Assembly (NCBI GenBank): GCA_937891825.1
Contig: CALAHN010000154.1
Coordinates: 1 to 55,424 of the forward strand
DNA: 55,424 bases
DNA from: an uncultured Alphaproteobacteria bacterium
GTDB taxonomy: Bacteria; Pseudomonadota; Alphaproteobacteria; Bin95
Reading direction: 5' to 3'
Shown here: positions 32,748 to 41,601 of the stretch, piece after piece
Position numbering within the stretch: the first letter of the stretch is position 1
Layout of the letters: every line of letters begins with the position of its first letter
Notes under the pieces: model-generated
Database searches by the model: none
What the model was told of the DNA's origin: nothing
Seen by the model: only the letters and a program-made list of their open reading frames with translations
Translations under genes and position numbers: made by a program

Positions 32748-34100
32748 ATGCCGGCCGTCATCCGCGAACCCGCCCGGGATATCCCGATCATCGCCGCGGC
32801 GGATGTCGTCGTTCTGGGCGGCGGCCCGGCCGGGATCGCGGCGGCGACGGCGGCGGCCCGCACCGGCGCCGAGACCCTGCTGCTGGAGCGTTACGGCTTC
32901 CTTGGCGGCATGGGCACAGCCGCCATGGTCACGAATTTCTGCGGGCTGCACGCGGGGTCGAACGGCGAGGTCACCCAGGTCGTGCACGGCATCGCCGACG
33001 ATATCCTGGACCGCCTGAAAGCCCTCGACGGGCTCGCGCCCTGGCATGTCGTGCCGGGGCCGGACGGGCTGAAGACCGGCGCCCAGGCCTATGACACGGC
33101 GGCCTTCAAGGAGGTCGCGGACGCCATCGTCACTGAAGCGGGCGCCAGGATCCGCTTCCACACCTTCGCCTGCGGCGCCATCGTCGCCGATGCCCGCATC
33201 CAGGCGATCCTGATCGAAACCAAATCGGGCCGCGGCGCGGTCCAGGGCCGGACCTTCATCGATTGCTCGGGCGACGCCGATCTGGCGCACTGGGCCGGCG
33301 CGCCGACGGCGACCGGCGGCGCGGACGGGTTCATGGCCTATCCGACGATGATGTTCCGCATCGCCGGCGTCGATGACGCCGTCGCCATGGCCGAGGCGCG
33401 GCCGCGCATCCGGGACTTGATCGCGGAGGCCAACGCCAGCGGCAAATATGCCCTGCCCCGCAAGGTCGGCATCATGCGGACCCAGGCGCATGCGGGCGAA
33501 TGGCGCGCCAACTTGACCCAGATCAGCCGCAATGGCGCGCCCCTGAACGGCGCCGACGCTGACGATCTTTCCTTCGCCGAACTGGAAGGCCGCCGTCAGG
33601 TCCGGGAATATTTCCGCTTCCTGAAGGACATGGCGCCAGGCTTCGCTGACGCCTATCTCCTGGAAACCGCGCCGCAGATCGGCATTCGCGAGACCCGGCG
33701 CATCCTCGGCGACTACCAGATGACCGGCGACGACGTGCTGGAATGCCGGGATTTCGACGACGCCATCGGCGTCAACGGCTGGCCGCTGGAAACCCACGAG
33801 TTCGGCGATGTCGCCTGGAAATTCATTCCAGGCCGCGGCTATGCCCAGATCCCGTTTTCGACGACGCTGCCCAGGGGCGTCGACAATCTCCTGGTCGCGG
33901 GACGCTGCGCTTCGACGACCCAGGACGGCCAGGCGTCGCTCCGGGTGAGCGGCCCCTGTTTCGTCATGGGGCAAGCGGCGGGAACGGCGGCTGTGCTGGC
34001 CGATCGCTCAGGCGTCGCGCCCAGGGACCTGGCGATCCGCGATCTCCAGCGTCAACTCCGCAGCGACGGCGTCTTCCTCGGCGACGTCCCGGGCTTGTAA
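32748..34100 (+). CDS. FAD-dependent oxidoreductase (FAD_oxidored family)
   Basis: A 450-residue flavoprotein. VVVLGGGPAGIAAATAAARTG is the N-terminal dinucleotide fold, LLERYGFLGGMGTAAMV the second FAD contact with the GG-x-G pattern, and LLVAGRCASTTQDGQASLR then GQAAGTAA the C-terminal FAD region. This is the FAD-dependent oxidoreductase group of thiazole-type/heterodisulfide-reductase-like proteins; no Cys motif or partner points to a substrate. One base after the fabZ stop, so part of the operon, in the place normally held by lpxA. Confidence 0.85.
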   Translation: MPAVIREPARDIPIIAAADVVVLGGGPAGIAAATAAARTGAETLLLERYGFLGGMGTAAMVTNFCGLHAGSNGEVTQVVHGIADDILDRLKALDGLAPWHVVPGPDGLKTGAQAYDTAAFKEVADAIVTEAGARIRFHTFACGAIVADARIQAILIETKSGRGAVQGRTFIDCSGDADLAHWAGAPTATGGADGFMAYPTMMFRIAGVDDAVAMAEARPRIRDLIAEANASGKYALPRKVGIMRTQAHAGEWRANLTQISRNGAPLNGADADDLSFAELEGRRQVREYFRFLKDMAPGFADAYLLETAPQIGIRETRRILGDYQMTGDDVLECRDFDDAIGVNGWPLETHEFGDVAWKFIPGRGYAQIPFSTTLPRGVDNLLVAGRCASTTQDGQASLRVSGPCFVMGQAAGTAAVLADRSGVAPRDLAIRDLQRQLRSDGVFLGDVPGL

Positions 34101-34107
34101 GACCGGA

Positions 34108-35208
34108 TCAGACGTTGAAGCGGAACAGCATCACGTCGCCGTCCTTGACGATGTAATTGCGGCCTTCCTGCCGCATCTTGCCGGCTTCCTTGGCGCCGGT
34201 TTCGCCGCCCAGCTTCACGTAATCCTCGAACGCGATGGTTTCGGCGGCGATGAAGCCGCGCTCGAAGTCCGAGTGGATTTCGCCCGCCGCTTCCGGGGCG
34301 GCCGCGCCGGCGCGCACGGTCCAGGCGCGCGCTTCCTTCGGGCCGGCGGTAAAGAACGTCAGCAAGCCCAGCAACGCGTAGCCGGTGCGGATGACGCGGT
34401 TGAGGCCCGGCTCTTCCAGGCCCAATGTCTCCAGGAACTCGCGCTTTTCGGCTTCGGAGCCAAGCTGGGCGATCTCGGACTCGATCGCGGCCGAGACGAC
34501 GACATGGCCAGCCCCTTCCGCCTCCGCCTTCAGGCGCACCCGCTCGGACAAGGCGTTGCCTTCGGCGGCGGCGCTTTCCTCGACATTGCAGACATACATG
34601 ACCGGCTTGTAGGTCAGCAGCTGCAGGCCCTTGGCGATCCTGTGGCGGTCCTTGTCGAACGTGACGGTGCGGGCGGGACGGCCGGCTTTCAGGGCCTCGA
34701 CCAGGGGCTCCATCACTTCCGCGAGCAGCTTGGCGTCCTTGTCGCCTTGCTGGCCGCGTTTCCGCGCCTGCTCGAAGCGGCGTTCCAGGCTGTCGAGATC
34801 GGCCAGCATCAGTTCGGTTTCGACCGTCTCCGCGTCCCGGATCGGATCGATCGAGCCTTCGACATGGGTGATGTCGCCTTCCTCGAAGCAGCGCACCACA
34901 TGGACGATGGCGTCGACCTCGCGGATGTTGCCAAGGAACTGGTTGCCCAGGCCCTCGCCCCGGCTGGCGCCCCGGACGAGGCCGGCGATATCGACGAACT
35001 CCAACTGGGTCGCCACGATCTTCTGGGATTTCGCGGTCTCGGCGAGGCGGGTCAACCGGGCGTCCGGCACGGCGACGCGGCCGACATTCGGCTCAATCGT
35101 GCAAAAGGGATAGTTGGCGCTTTCCGCCGCCGCCGTTGCGGTCAACGCATTGAAGAGTGTGGACTTGCCGACGTTCGGCAGCCCGACGATGCCGCAATTG
35201 AAACCCAT
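34108..35208 (-). CDS. ychF: Redox-regulated ATPase/GTPase YchF
   Basis: A 366-residue Obg-family P-loop protein. G1 GLPNVGKSTLFNALT, the G3 region VDIAGLVRGASRGEGLGNQFL, and CNVEES in place of NKxD (the ATP-preferring YchF signature) are present, with a C-terminal TGS domain ending VMLFRFNV. It is linked to translation and oxidative stress. It converges with the FAD oxidoreductase gene (7-bp gap). The common neighbours pth and rplY are not here. Confidence 0.96.
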   Translation of the reverse strand: MGFNCGIVGLPNVGKSTLFNALTATAAAESANYPFCTIEPNVGRVAVPDARLTRLAETAKSQKIVATQLEFVDIAGLVRGASRGEGLGNQFLGNIREVDAIVHVVRCFEEGDITHVEGSIDPIRDAETVETELMLADLDSLERRFEQARKRGQQGDKDAKLLAEVMEPLVEALKAGRPARTVTFDKDRHRIAKGLQLLTYKPVMYVCNVEESAAAEGNALSERVRLKAEAEGAGHVVVSAAIESEIAQLGSEAEKREFLETLGLEEPGLNRVIRTGYALLGLLTFFTAGPKEARAWTVRAGAAAPEAAGEIHSDFERGFIAAETIAFEDYVKLGGETGAKEAGKMRQEGRNYIVKDGDVMLFRFNV

Positions 35209-35251: not shown

Positions 35252-36235
35252 TCAGCCCCACAAAGCCGCTGAAGGCGGCGCGATTTCGGACCCCGTATAG
35301 CAGAGGCCGGGGTCGCGGTCTTTCGCTAACAGCAGGGGACCGTCCAGATCGACGAACCGCGCGCCCGCCGCCGCCAGCATCGCCGGCGCCATGCCGAGCG
35401 AGGTGCCGAGCATGCAGCCGACCATCACGCCCATGTTGGCGGACCGGATCGCGGCCGCGAACTTCAGGGCTTCCGTCAGGCCGCCGGTCTTGTCGAGCTT
35501 GATGTTGACCACGTCATATCGACCCTGCAGCCGGTCGATATCGTCGGATGTATGGGCGCTTTCGTCGGCGCAAAGCGGGATCGGATGCGGCAGATCGGCC
35601 AGCGCCGCGTCGGCGTCGGCGGGCAGGGGCTGCTCGATCATGGCGACGCCGAGGCCCGCCAGTTGCTCGGAGAACGGCGCGACCATCGCGGGCGTCCAGC
35701 CTTCGTTGGCGTCGACGATCAGGGCGGCGTCCGGCGCATTCCGGCGGATCGCGGCGACGCGCTCCAGGTCGCCCTCGCCCGCAAGCTTGATCTTCAGGAG
35801 CGGGCGATCCTTGGCCGCCGCCGCCGCCGCGCCCATGGCCTCGGCGCTGTCGAGGCTGAGGGTGAAGGCGGTGACGATGCCGGTCGGCTCCGGCAGACCG
35901 ACGATTTCCCAGGCCCGCCGTCCGGCGCGTTTCGCCTCCAGGTCCCAGAAGGCGCAATCGACGGCGTTGCGCGCCGCGCCCGGCGGCAGCAGGGCCTGCA
36001 GGCCCTGGCGGTCGGCCCCGGCGGCGATGGCCCCGGCGACGCTGGCGATCTGGTCGCGGACGCTTTCGACGGTTTCGCCGTAGCGGGCATAGGGCACGCA
36101 TTCGCCGCGCCCGCGGAAGGGACCGTGCGTCAGCGTCGCCGTGACGACGCGGCTTTCGGTGCGCGCGCCCCGGCTGATGCGAAACACGCCGCGGATCGGA
36201 AAGACGTCTTCCTGATGGGTCAGTGTGATTGTCAC
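35252..36235 (-). CDS. dgcA: N-acetyl-D-glutamate racemase/dipeptide epimerase, DgcA-like
   Basis: A 327-residue enolase-superfamily enzyme of the L-Ala-D/L-Glu epimerase subgroup. The acid/base lysine pair LLKIKLAG, metal ligands LIVDANEGW, MIEQPLP and LCADESAH, and the second lysine in NIKLDKTGG are in the expected order. Adjacency to dgcN argues for the N-acetyl-D-glutamate racemase role rather than murein dipeptide epimerisation. The GTG start at 36235 overlaps the VOC stop (GTGA); an upstream TTG at 36250 is less likely. Confidence 0.85.
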   Translation of the reverse strand: MTITLTHQEDVFPIRGVFRISRGARTESRVVTATLTHGPFRGRGECVPYARYGETVESVRDQIASVAGAIAAGADRQGLQALLPPGAARNAVDCAFWDLEAKRAGRRAWEIVGLPEPTGIVTAFTLSLDSAEAMGAAAAAAKDRPLLKIKLAGEGDLERVAAIRRNAPDAALIVDANEGWTPAMVAPFSEQLAGLGVAMIEQPLPADADAALADLPHPIPLCADESAHTSDDIDRLQGRYDVVNIKLDKTGGLTEALKFAAAIRSANMGVMVGCMLGTSLGMAPAMLAAAGARFVDLDGPLLLAKDRDPGLCYTGSEIAPPSAALWG

Positions 36236-36645
36236 CGTGCGTCCGCCCAAGGGTCATAGGAGCCGAAGCTCCATAATTGGCCTTCCGGGTCGCGGCAGAC
36301 GAAGCCGCGGCCGCCATAGTCGGCATCAGTCAGGTCCTCGACGATTTCGGCTCCGGCGGCGTCGGCGCTTTCATAAAGCGCGTCCGGGTCCTCGACGACG
36401 AGATAGGCGCTTTGGTTGACCGGCTGGCCCCGTTGCGCCGGCTGCTGATGGGCGCCGAAGGCGTCGTCGCGCGCGTCGCCGATCATGATCATGGCGTCGC
36501 CCAGGATGAGTTGCGCATGGGCCACGCCGCCGTCCTCGCCGTCGACGATCAGGACGGGCCGGAAGCCGAACGCATCCTCAAGCCAGCCGATCATGCGCCG
36601 GGCATCGTGATAACGCATGGTCGGGATGATGGCGGAGGCGCTCAT
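36232..36645 (-). CDS. VOC-superfamily (glyoxalase-like) protein
   Basis: A 137-residue PhnB/glyoxalase-type VOC protein with two beta-alpha-beta-beta-beta modules: PTMRYHDARRMIGWLEDAFGF and GGRGFVCRDPEGQLWSFGSYDPW. Potential metal ligands (His in VAHAQLIL, Glu/Asp near the end) are partly present. Wedged between dgcN and dgcA with 4-nt overlaps on both sides, so it is made together with them. Its job in D-glutamate metabolism is unknown; binding or scavenging of a pathway intermediate is speculative. Confidence 0.8.
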   Translation of the reverse strand: MSASAIIPTMRYHDARRMIGWLEDAFGFRPVLIVDGEDGGVAHAQLILGDAMIMIGDARDDAFGAHQQPAQRGQPVNQSAYLVVEDPDALYESADAAGAEIVEDLTDADYGGRGFVCRDPEGQLWSFGSYDPWADAR

Positions 36646-37655
36646 GCGCCTGACATCGCCATCAGCGCATCGACGATGCGGCCGGGGCCCTGGCGGATCG
36701 GGTCGACGGTCGGCAGGCCGAATTTCTGTTCGATCTCGCCCATGATCCGGTCGCCCTCGGCCGGCGCGACGCCTGCGGTATTGACCGAAATCCCGACGAA
36801 CCTGACCGCCGGATTGGTCAGGCGGGCGAGCGTCAGATAAGGCTCGAACACATCCGCCATGTTCGGGATCGGCATATGCGGCAGGCCGCGCATGTGGGTG
36901 CGCGTCGGCTCGTGGCAGAGGATCAGCGCATCGGGCTGGGACCCGTGCATCAGGCCGAGCGTGACGCCGGCATAGGCTGCGTGAAACAGCGAGCCCTGGC
37001 CTTCGATCACATCCCAATGGTCGGGGTCGTTCGCGGGCGACAGCCATTCGGCGGCGCCGGCGATGAAGTCGGACACGATGGCGTCGATGGCGATGCCGCG
37101 TTCGGCGATCAGCACGCCGGTCTGCCCGGTCGCGCGGAAGCTTGACTTGACGCCGCGCGCCTCAAGCTCCCTTGCGACGGCGAGGGCGGTGTACTTCTTC
37201 CCGATGGAGCAATCCATGCCGACGGTCAGGGCGCGCATGCCCGGCCGCTTGACGCCCTTGCCGGTGCCGAAATCCCGGGTCGGATGGCGGAGGTCGTGGA
37301 GGGTCCGGCCATGCTCCTCGGCCGCCGCTTTAATCGCGGGGAAGGAACCCAGCCGCGCATGCAGGCCGGACGCCACATCCATGCCCGACGCGATCGCCTC
37401 GACGATGGTCGCGATCCAGTGGTCGGGCAGAAAGCCGCCCTGATTGACGACGCCGACGACCAGCGTCTTGCCGCCTTTGGCGACGCCCTCGGCGACCGTC
37501 ATGTCGGGCAGGCCGCAATCGGCGCCGCAGCCGGGCAGGCGCACCTGGCCGATGCACCAGTCGGGCCGCCAGTCGGCGATGCCGTCGCCGGTCTTTGCGG
37601 CCAGCTGATCCGGCACGTCGCCGAGGAACAGAACGTAGGGCTTTTGAATATTCAT
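36642..37655 (-). CDS. dgcN: DUF1611 protein, D-glutamate N-acetyltransferase DgcN-like
   Basis: A 337-residue DUF1611 protein. PYVLFLGDVPDQLAAKTGDG at the N-terminus, the P-loop-like TVGMDCSIGKKYTALA (about residues 144-159), VIEGQGSLFHAAYAG and FVGISVNTAG are family hallmarks. In Proteobacteria and haloarchaea DgcN acetylates D-glutamate to N-acetyl-D-glutamate, which DgcA then epimerises. Here the gene lies 5 bp after the M20 deacylase and overlaps the VOC gene by ATGA. Confidence 0.87.
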   Translation of the reverse strand: MNIQKPYVLFLGDVPDQLAAKTGDGIADWRPDWCIGQVRLPGCGADCGLPDMTVAEGVAKGGKTLVVGVVNQGGFLPDHWIATIVEAIASGMDVASGLHARLGSFPAIKAAAEEHGRTLHDLRHPTRDFGTGKGVKRPGMRALTVGMDCSIGKKYTALAVARELEARGVKSSFRATGQTGVLIAERGIAIDAIVSDFIAGAAEWLSPANDPDHWDVIEGQGSLFHAAYAGVTLGLMHGSQPDALILCHEPTRTHMRGLPHMPIPNMADVFEPYLTLARLTNPAVRFVGISVNTAGVAPAEGDRIMGEIEQKFGLPTVDPIRQGPGRIVDALMAMSGA

Positions 37656-37660
37656 GGCTC

Positions 37661-38830
37661 TCAGCGCTTCGGTTGGAGGTCTTCGACCAGCCGGGCGAGC
37701 ACGCTCGCGCCGATCGGCAGGATGGCGTCGTTGAAGTCATATTGCGGATGGTGGACGTTTTCCGAGGGTGCGCCGCCGCCGCCGCCGAGCCAGAGGTAGC
37801 AGCCCGGCTTTTCCTGCAGCATGAAGGAAAAATCTTCCGCGCCCATCGTCGGCTCGACGTCCTGGCGCACATTCTCCGCGCCGACGACGCCGGCGGCGAC
37901 GCTGCGCGCCAGCTCGGTCTCGCGCGCATGGTTGACGGTCGCGGGATAGCCCCGGCGATAGTCGACCTCGGCGCGGCCGCCCATGCCCGTTGCAATGCCC
38001 TCGGCGATGGATTTCATGCCGGCCTCGATCCGGTCCTGCACCCGCCCGTCGAAGGTGCGGACCGTGCCCGACAGCACCGCGTGATCGGGAATGACGTTAT
38101 AGGCATTGCCGGCCTTGAACATGGTGACGCTGATGACGGCGGTGCGGATCGGGTCGGTCGTGCGGCTGACCAGGCTTTGCAGGGCGGTCACGATCTGGGC
38201 GCCGATGACGACCGGGTCGACGCCGTTATGGGGCATCGCGCCGTGGGCGCCCTTGCCGCGGATGGTGATGTCGAACTTGTCGGCGGCGGCCATGATCGGC
38301 CCCGGCACGGCGGCGATCGAACCGGCCGGCATCTGCGGCCAGTTGTGCAGGCCGTAAACCTGATCGCACGGGAAATCCCTGAACAGGCCGTCGTCGATCA
38401 TCGCCTTGGCCCCGGCGAAGCCTTCCTCGGCGGGCTGGAAGATCACATTGACGGTCCCGGCGAAATTCCGGGTCTCCGCCAGATATTTGGCCGCGCCCAG
38501 CAGCATGGTCGTGTGGCCGTCATGGCCGCAGGCATGCATGACGCCGGCGGTCCGGGACTTCCAGGGCGTGTCGTTGTGTTCGTCCATCGGCAGCGCGTCC
38601 ATGTCGGCGCGGAGCCCGATCGACGGGCCGTCGCCGGCGCCCCGGATCACGCCGACGACGCCGGTCTTGCCGATCTCGGTTTTGACCTCGATGCCCCAGG
38701 ACTTCAGCTTCTCCGCCACGATGCCGGCCGTCCGGGTTTCCTGGTAGGCCAGTTCCGGATGCATGTGGAAGTCCCGCCGCCAGGCGGTCATTTCCTCTTC
38801 CATGGCGGCGATCGAGTTGATGACGGGCAT
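37661..38830 (-). CDS. M20-family amidohydrolase (N-acyl amino acid deacylase)
   Basis: A 389-residue di-zinc amidohydrolase of the hippurate/N-acyl-amino-acid hydrolase type. MHACGHDGHTTMLLGAA, FQPAEEGFAGA, the catalytic-domain His in LHNWPQ, the lid domain GKGAHGAMPHNGVDP and MGAEDFSFML are present. As first gene of the operon with dgcN and dgcA, it is well placed to release acetate from N-acetyl-L-glutamate and finish the conversion of D-glutamate to L-glutamate. That substrate is inference from context. Confidence 0.88.
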   Translation of the reverse strand: MPVINSIAAMEEEMTAWRRDFHMHPELAYQETRTAGIVAEKLKSWGIEVKTEIGKTGVVGVIRGAGDGPSIGLRADMDALPMDEHNDTPWKSRTAGVMHACGHDGHTTMLLGAAKYLAETRNFAGTVNVIFQPAEEGFAGAKAMIDDGLFRDFPCDQVYGLHNWPQMPAGSIAAVPGPIMAAADKFDITIRGKGAHGAMPHNGVDPVVIGAQIVTALQSLVSRTTDPIRTAVISVTMFKAGNAYNVIPDHAVLSGTVRTFDGRVQDRIEAGMKSIAEGIATGMGGRAEVDYRRGYPATVNHARETELARSVAAGVVGAENVRQDVEPTMGAEDFSFMLQEKPGCYLWLGGGGGAPSENVHHPQYDFNDAILPIGASVLARLVEDLQPKR

Positions 38831-38901: not shown

Positions 38902-41601
38902 ATGGACGGCGCCCGAGCAACCCCAAATTCCGTCGCGGCCCAGCCGACGCCGATGATGGCCCAGTATCTTGCCCTCAGGGCGGCGCATCCAGGCTATCTC
39001 CTGTTCTATCGCATGGGCGACTTCTACGAGCTGTTCTTCGATGACGCTGTAAAAGCCGCTGAAACCCTGGACATTACGCTGACCCAGCGCGGCCAGCATG
39101 ACGGCGACCCGATCCCGATGGCGGGCGTGCCGGTCAAAAGCCATGAAGCCTATCTGGAACGGCTGATCCGCGCCGGCCACCGGATCGCCATCTGCGAGCA
39201 GACCGAGGACCCGGCCGAGGCGAAGAAGCGCGCCGGCAAGACCCTGGTCGCCCGGGATGTCGTGCGCCTCGTGACGCCCGGCACGCTGACCGAGGACACC
39301 CTGCTCGACGCGCGCCGCCATAACTACCTCGCGGCGCTCGCCGAAGCCGGCGGCAAGCTCGGCCTCGCCTGGCTCGATCTCTCGACGGGCGCCTTCGAGA
39401 CCGAGGCCCTGGCGCTTCCGGATCTGGCCGAAGCGCTCGCCCGGATCGACCCGCAGGAGTTGATCGCCCCCGACCGCCTGCTGGCCCGGCCCCAGGTCGC
39501 CGCCGCGCTCGCCGAGACGGCGGCGACGCTGACGGACCTGCCGGCCGCCCGGTTCGACAGCACGGCCGCCGAACGGCGCCTGCAGCGGGCGTTCGGCGTC
39601 AGCTCGCTCGAGGGGTTCGGCGCGTTCGAGCGGGCGGAGATCGCGGCTGCGGGCGTCCTGGTCGACTATGTCGAAGCGACCCAGAAAGGCCAGATGCCGC
39701 GGCTCGACCCGCCCGCCCGGTTTCAGCCGGGCCGCGTCATGCAGATCGATCCGGCGACCCGGCGGAGTTTGGAGCTGTTCCGCACCCAGGCGGGCGAGCG
39801 GCAGGGCGCGCTCCTGACCGCGATCGACCGCACCCGGACCAGCGCCGGCGCGCGCCTTCTCGCCGGCTGGCTCGCGGCGCCGCTGACCGACGCGGCGGCG
39901 ATCGGCGCGCGCCAGGATGCGGTCGCGCTCTTCGTCGAGCAGCCGGCGCTTGGCGCGGCGGTCGCCGATGCGCTTGGGCAGGCGCCGGATCTGGCCCGCG
40001 CGCTTTCCCGGCTGGCGCTCGGGCGCGGCGGTCCGCGCGACCTGAAGTCCGTCGGCGCCAGCCTGAAGGCGGCCGACACGGTTCAAGCGGCCCTGGCGGC
40101 GGGACCGGCGAGCCTCGCCGCCGCCGGCCTGCCACCGCTGCTGCGCGAGGCCGCGCTTCGCCTGCAAGGCCACGACGCCCTGGCGGCGGCGCTCCAGGCT
40201 GCGCTGGCCGACGATCTGCCATTGCTCCAGCGCGACGGCGGGTTCATTCGCCCTGGCCATGACGGGGAGTTGGACGAGCTCCGGGCGCTCCGCGACGACA
40301 GCCGCCGGCTGATCGCGGCGCTCCAGGCCCGCTATGCGACGGCGACCGGCATCGCCAATCTGAAGCTGAAGCACAATGCGGTTTTGGGCTATTTCATCGA
40401 AACGACGCCCGCCCATGAGGCGAAGCTTGCGAATGACGAGCAATTCATCCGCCGCCAGACCATGGCGAACGCCGTCCGGTTCTCCACGGTCGAACTGTCG
40501 GACCTGGAGGCGCGCATCGCCCAGGCGGCGGACCGGGCGCTGGCGCGGGAGCTGGAGCTGTTCGACGGGCTTGTCGGGGCCGTGGTCGCGGCCGGCGAAG
40601 GCCTGGCGCGCGTCGCGGGCGCCCTGGCGCTGATCGATGTCGCCCAGGGCCTGGGGCGCCTCGCGGCCGAGCGGCGCTACGCCCGCCCCAGGGTCGATGA
40701 CAGCCTGGCCTTCCGCATCGAGCAGGGGCGGCATCCGGTCGTCGAGCCCGCCTTGCCGTCCGGCGGGTTCGTGCCCAACGACTGCGATCTCTCGGTCGAG
40801 GACGCCAAACGCCTGTGGCTCGTCACCGGCCCGAACATGGCCGGCAAGAGCACCTATTTGCGCCAGAATGCGCTGATCGCCGTGCTCGCCCAGATCGGCG
40901 CCTTCGTTCCGGCGACGGCGGCCCATATCGGCGTCGTCGACCGCCTGTTCAGCCGGGTCGGCGCGTCGGACGATCTGGCGCGGGGCCGCTCGACTTTCAT
41001 GGTGGAGATGGTGGAGACGGCCGCCATCCTCAATCAGGCCGGGCCGCGCTCGCTGGTCATCCTGGATGAGATCGGCCGCGGCACCGCCACATATGACGGC
41101 CTCTCGATCGCCTGGGCGGCGGTCGAACGCCTGCATGACAAGAACCGGAGCCGGGGCCTGTTCGCGACCCATTACCACGAGCTGACGCAACTGGCGGAGA
41201 AGCTGGACGGCCTTGGCCTCGCCTCGATGCGGGTCAAGGAATGGCAGGGCGATATCGCGTTCCTGCATGAAGTGGCGCCGGGCGCCGCCGACCGCTCCTA
41301 TGGGGTGCATGTCGCCCGGCTGGCGGGCTTGCCGAAGGATGTCGTCCGTCGCGCCGCGGCCGTGCTCGTCCGGCTTGAGGCGGGCGAAGGCCCCGATGGC
41401 GGCCGGCTCGCCGACGACATGCCGCTGTTCGCCCATCGCCCGGCCGCCGCGGCCCTGCGGGAGCCCGACCCTCCGGCGCTGACGCCCGGCGAAGAGGCGG
41501 CGCTCGCCGACATCCGGTCGGCCGACCCCGACGCCTTGACGCCGCGGGCCGCGCTGGATTTGCTCTACCGATTGAAGTCACGCCTGACAGGAGATGCATG
41601 A
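38902..41601 (+). CDS. mutS: DNA mismatch repair protein MutS
   Basis: An 899-residue MutS. The mismatch-binding [15 protein letters not shown] carries the Phe-X-Glu wedge (about residues 37-51), followed by connector, lever and clamp domains. The ATPase has the Walker [10 protein letters not shown] (about residue 643), [12 protein letters not shown], and Walker [17 protein letters not shown]. The C-terminal [18 protein letters not shown] is the tetramerisation helix region. It diverges from the M20 operon across 71 bp. glnD, often nearby in Alphaproteobacteria, is absent. Confidence 0.97.

Follow-up and report, generated by a model that had tools for sequence, protein, structure and literature searches.

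An M20D aminoacylase gene ahead of dgcN in an uncultured alphaproteobacterial genus: a candidate addition to the DgcN-DgcA route

Genes and products of the locus

The window, by which we mean the whole stretch of DNA analysed (55,424 nucleotides from an uncultured alphaproteobacterium), contains a run of four open frames that are all co-directional on the minus strand. The first encodes an M20D aminoacylase/amidohydrolase of 389 aa (37661–38830). Its ATG start is preceded by GAGGAGG, and it is divergent from mutS (38902–41601, plus strand), a neighbour that marks the locus throughout the genus. After a gap of 5 bp (37656–37660) follows dgcN (36642–37655), encoding a predicted D-glutamate N-acetyltransferase (DUF1611) of 337 aa. 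Between dgcN and dgcA lies a gene for a VOC/glyoxalase-fold protein of 137 aa (36232–36645), which overlaps dgcN by 4 nt (ATGA) and dgcA by another 4 nt (GTGA). Given the latter overlap, dgcA (35252–36235) probably starts with the GTG at 36235; its product of 327 aa is a predicted N-acetyl-D-glutamate racemase of the enolase superfamily. GC3 ranges from 0.81 to 0.89 across the four genes, which fits real genes. The order of the run, its positions, the 5-bp gap and both overlaps had been described in the initial annotation and are borne out by the ORF coordinates. Its description as a "complete" operon is too strong, as the run includes no transporter or regulator gene and is followed on the same strand by the GTPase gene ychF (34108–35208), which starts 43 bp downstream of dgcA and keeps this position in the genus. 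Between dgcA and ychF, a search of the minus strand revealed no hairpin resembling a terminator. Beyond ychF, the window contains a plus-strand gene for an FAD-dependent oxidoreductase (32748–34100; 378 bits to Pfam FAD_oxidored). It closely follows a fabZ-like gene and matched no specific NCBIfam equivalog.

Together, the activities of DgcN and DgcA convert D-glutamate to N-acetyl-L-glutamate (PMC11747546), and D-glutamate use in Shewanella is probably served by the same pathway (PMC10845958). In the window, DgcN scored 507.8 bits against NCBIfam NF041892 (cut-off 480; profile positions 1–326 of 326) and has a solved relative in 7xrj (E-value of 7 × 10−125). DgcA scored 481.7 bits against NF042940 (cut-off 400; profile positions 2–323 of 323), with 4gfi as its closest solved chain and 1jpd as a further relative. 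The DgcA motifs KIK, DAN, EQP, ADES and NIKLDK align with both structures, and we take them to represent the catalytic lysines and metal ligands of the enolase superfamily. With both proteins above curated equivalog cut-offs, their earlier assignment to these families holds, and their likely functions are those of a D-glutamate N-acetyltransferase (EC 2.3.1.312) and an N-acetyl-D-glutamate racemase (EC 5.1.1.25).

DgcA also resembles the E. coli L-Ala-D/L-Glu epimerase (YcjG), which belongs to the same enolase subgroup. It aligns almost end to end with the E. coli structure 1jpd, shares the catalytic lysines and the DLDG motif, and scores 332.6 bits against the epimerase model PRK15129, just under the cut-off of 343. 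If DgcA were mainly a dipeptide epimerase, the run might recycle peptidoglycan peptides with the M20 protein as a dipeptidase or carboxypeptidase, and the match of the latter to the carboxypeptidase CpsA model (400.9 bits, below the cut-off of 500) could be read in the same way. We consider this highly improbable: DgcA exceeds the cut-off of its own model by more than 80 bits while falling short of that of the epimerase, and in almost all loci, a set itself chosen by DgcN, it is encoded next to DgcN, which its family marks as an N-acetyltransferase.

The M20 protein contains the Pfam domains Peptidase_M20 and M20_dimer and matches the TIGR01891 amidohydrolase model over its full length (390.6 bits, cut-off 153.75). 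This broad model alone was passed in NCBIfam. No specific equivalog fits, since the CpsA match and that to the DoeB2 model (361.3 bits, cut-off 550) both remain below their cut-offs. Residues C101, H103, E135, E136, H162 and H361 do not vary among four members of the genus. By analogy with the M20D family and by alignments to solved relatives, we take E135 to be the catalytic residue and the other five to be metal ligands. The protein thus resembles the M20D aminoacylases/amidohydrolases of TIGR01891 in its full-length match, its catalytic and dimerisation domains and its metal ligands. Solved relatives include YxeP, ILL2, 4ewt and the N-alpha-acyl-glutamine aminoacylase 6slf, the last of which suggests that a glutamate-like acyl substrate would suit the family. 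Among the family matches to this protein, none is a characterised enzyme with proven activity on N-acetylglutamate.

Genomic distribution of the M20 and VOC genes

We determined how widespread these genes are in a class-wide search of 385 genomes. DgcN was found above the cut-off in 94 of these, and a full-length relative in 97. In nearly all of the 80 named loci, dgcA closely follows dgcN; as these loci were picked by DgcN, they show only that dgcA follows dgcN. The two genes are adjacent and co-directional, and often overlap, in the window as in most alphaproteobacteria examined. Hence, dgcN-dgcA is a two-gene core that occurs commonly among alphaproteobacteria, in agreement with the literature. 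The locus in the window differs from this core in the M20 gene joined upstream, in this genus only, and in the VOC gene between dgcN and dgcA, in this genome only.

Within the genus, the arrangement M20-dgcN-dgcA-ychF facing mutS was found in five of five genomes. It is whole in the window's genome (G000, with the VOC gene), G011 and G013; in G010 and G012, the contigs are broken and each half is seen separately. Compared to the window, the other members have 78–79% identity in DgcN and 81–84% in M20. Despite this clear divergence, the spacing between M20 and dgcN has stayed at 5–15 bp. The co-directional placement of M20 just upstream of dgcN, pointed out in the initial annotation, is therefore conserved across the genus.

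Outside the genus, this linkage dissolves. Seven of the eight genomes of a sister genus contain an M20 ortholog (65–66% identity), and dgcN is absent from all eight. In G009, of the same family, dgcN-dgcA and the M20 ortholog are located on different contigs (C242 and C173, respectively). In G107, from another family, an M20 relative with 66% identity also faces mutS, and dgcN is not its neighbour (L226:4297–6501, contig C1). M20 identity between the window's genus and other members of its family (64–66%) is similar to that of MutS (62–67%), which suggests that M20 descended vertically and that its linkage to dgcN came later. The occurrence of the ortholog in a sister genus without dgcN, and its separation from dgcN in G009, indicate that M20 is an older, general aminoacylase-type gene that was recruited into the operon, its substrate being putative.

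We also looked for M20, VOC, mutS and ychF near dgcN across the 80 named loci and 30 shorter loci from the class-wide search. Among the 79 other named loci and the 30 shorter ones, none outside the window's genus had an M20 gene inside the dgcN-dgcA operon. An M20 gene within 6 kb of dgcN was present in 2 of the 79 (L032 and L080), where 0.3–0.7 would be expected (P = 0.05–0.15). Both were rejected as operon members, as they are on the opposite strand or separated by other genes and their number is near chance. A third candidate, in G352, was likewise rejected: it is convergent with dgcA at a distance of about 0.9 kb and sits beside typA-like and enoyl-CoA hydratase-like genes. At L222:427–4500 and L032:9431–12987, an M20 gene has a typA-like and an enoyl-CoA hydratase-like gene as neighbours and lies downstream of dgcA, on the opposite strand. 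At the level of whole genomes, a close M20 homolog was found in 76 of 97 dgcN genomes versus 72 of 288 others (odds ratio 10.9), leaving 21 dgcN genomes without one; we do not take this co-occurrence as proof, since genome size and relatedness are confounders.

These distributions bear on whether M20 shares a substrate with its neighbours at all. It could be a general aminoacylase or peptidase with a role of its own, behind which dgcN-dgcA came to lie and share a promoter. This is a serious possibility, to which we give rather less than an even chance. Its ortholog is present across the family whether or not dgcN is, it faces mutS in the absence of dgcN in G107, it never shares an operon with dgcN in the loci examined outside the genus, and even a housekeeping gene, ychF, rides on the same strand. 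The tight spacing maintained through the divergence of the genus argues against such independence, as does the class-wide co-occurrence with dgcN, within the limits of its confounding.

The VOC gene has a much narrower distribution. It was absent from between dgcN and dgcA in the other genus genomes with a readable junction, where the two genes are adjacent and in some cases joined by an ATGA-type overlap, and in all other dgcN loci examined. Thus, when the four-gene order was checked in relatives, M20-dgcN-dgcA recurred at the genus level only, and the VOC gene was confined to the window's genome. G013 contained no VOC relatives at an E-value of 10−20 or better. The closest relatives in the class share at most 58% identity with the VOC protein of the window, and no dgc or M20 gene lies within 1.5 kb of them. 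The protein itself matches Pfam Glyoxalase (E-value of 3 × 10−14), and its best solved relative is TioX (3itw). By hand alignment to the motif, the usual glyoxalase metal positions seem to have no ligands.

We also weighed whether the VOC protein could function in the pathway, perhaps by binding or epimerising an acylated intermediate. The intact frame and the neat overlaps on both sides, which imply translational coupling, would fit such a role. The absence of the gene from the operon in every other locus, its close homologs away from dgc and M20 genes, TioX as the closest solved chain and the seemingly ligand-free metal positions all speak against it and make it very unlikely. The earlier inclusion of the VOC protein in the pathway thus finds no comparative support. 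Judged by its distribution, the gene is probably a recent genome-specific insertion that kept the coupling on both sides, and a passenger. It would then be an example of a gene entering a tightly coupled operon while leaving translation unbroken.

A predicted route to L-glutamate

We consider the best explanation of the locus, with a probability of roughly 0.55, to be the established DgcN-DgcA route to which an M20 deacylase has been added. By curated family membership, DgcN would acetylate D-glutamate with acetyl-CoA to N-acetyl-D-glutamate, which DgcA would racemise to N-acetyl-L-glutamate. The M20D metalloenzyme would then most likely remove the acetyl group to release L-glutamate, a step suggested by its operon position, family chemistry and metal ligands. 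The VOC protein probably performs no step. Of the pathway interpretation in the initial annotation, the identity of dgcN and dgcA and the placement of M20 upstream of dgcN stand, and the VOC role and completeness do not. Overall, the locus departs only modestly from a known pathway.

We put the odds that M20 acts as a deacetylase on N-acetyl-L-glutamate at about even. ArgJ is present in the window's genome and its relatives, which allows arginine synthesis to draw on N-acetyl-L-glutamate with no deacetylase involved. ArgJ cycles the acetyl group and yields no net deacetylation, and catabolic use with net formation of L-glutamate therefore needs a hydrolase. Against a pathway role of M20 stand its ortholog in relatives that lack dgcN, the missing close copy in part of the dgcN genomes and the lack of an equivalog fit. 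More tentatively, at somewhat short of an even chance, M20 may be devoted to deacetylating N-acetyl-L-glutamate, so that a single transcriptional unit would encode the DgcN-DgcA route and its closing step in this uncultured genus. If true, the last step of the pathway would gain a dedicated gene. In the literature covered, whose scope excluded the original DgcN paper, no dedicated gene was found for the conversion of N-acetyl-L-glutamate to L-glutamate. A deacylase gene fixed ahead of dgcN in one genus is a concrete candidate for this step.

Other genes near dgcN

Tallying the genes near dgcN by Pfam returned hexapeptide-repeat proteins and MlaA, and no deacylase partner appeared in these tallies, which derive from a simple gene caller that misses some genes and calls some shadow frames. 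In several alphaproteobacterial lineages, the hexapeptide-repeat gene (gamma-carbonic-anhydrase-like, about 195–200 aa) immediately precedes dgcN, overlapping it by 4 nt in some loci, and it is a more widespread neighbour of dgcN than M20. It was found at L023:5395–5982, L030:5328–5930, L037:5373–5972, L067:2211–2813, L071:5387–5989, L222:6542–7132 and L223:6453–7043. Several dgcN genomes (G341, G263, G199, G208, G276 and others) also contain a second, more distant DUF1611 homolog, which scores about 145–177 bits over profile positions of about 58–325.
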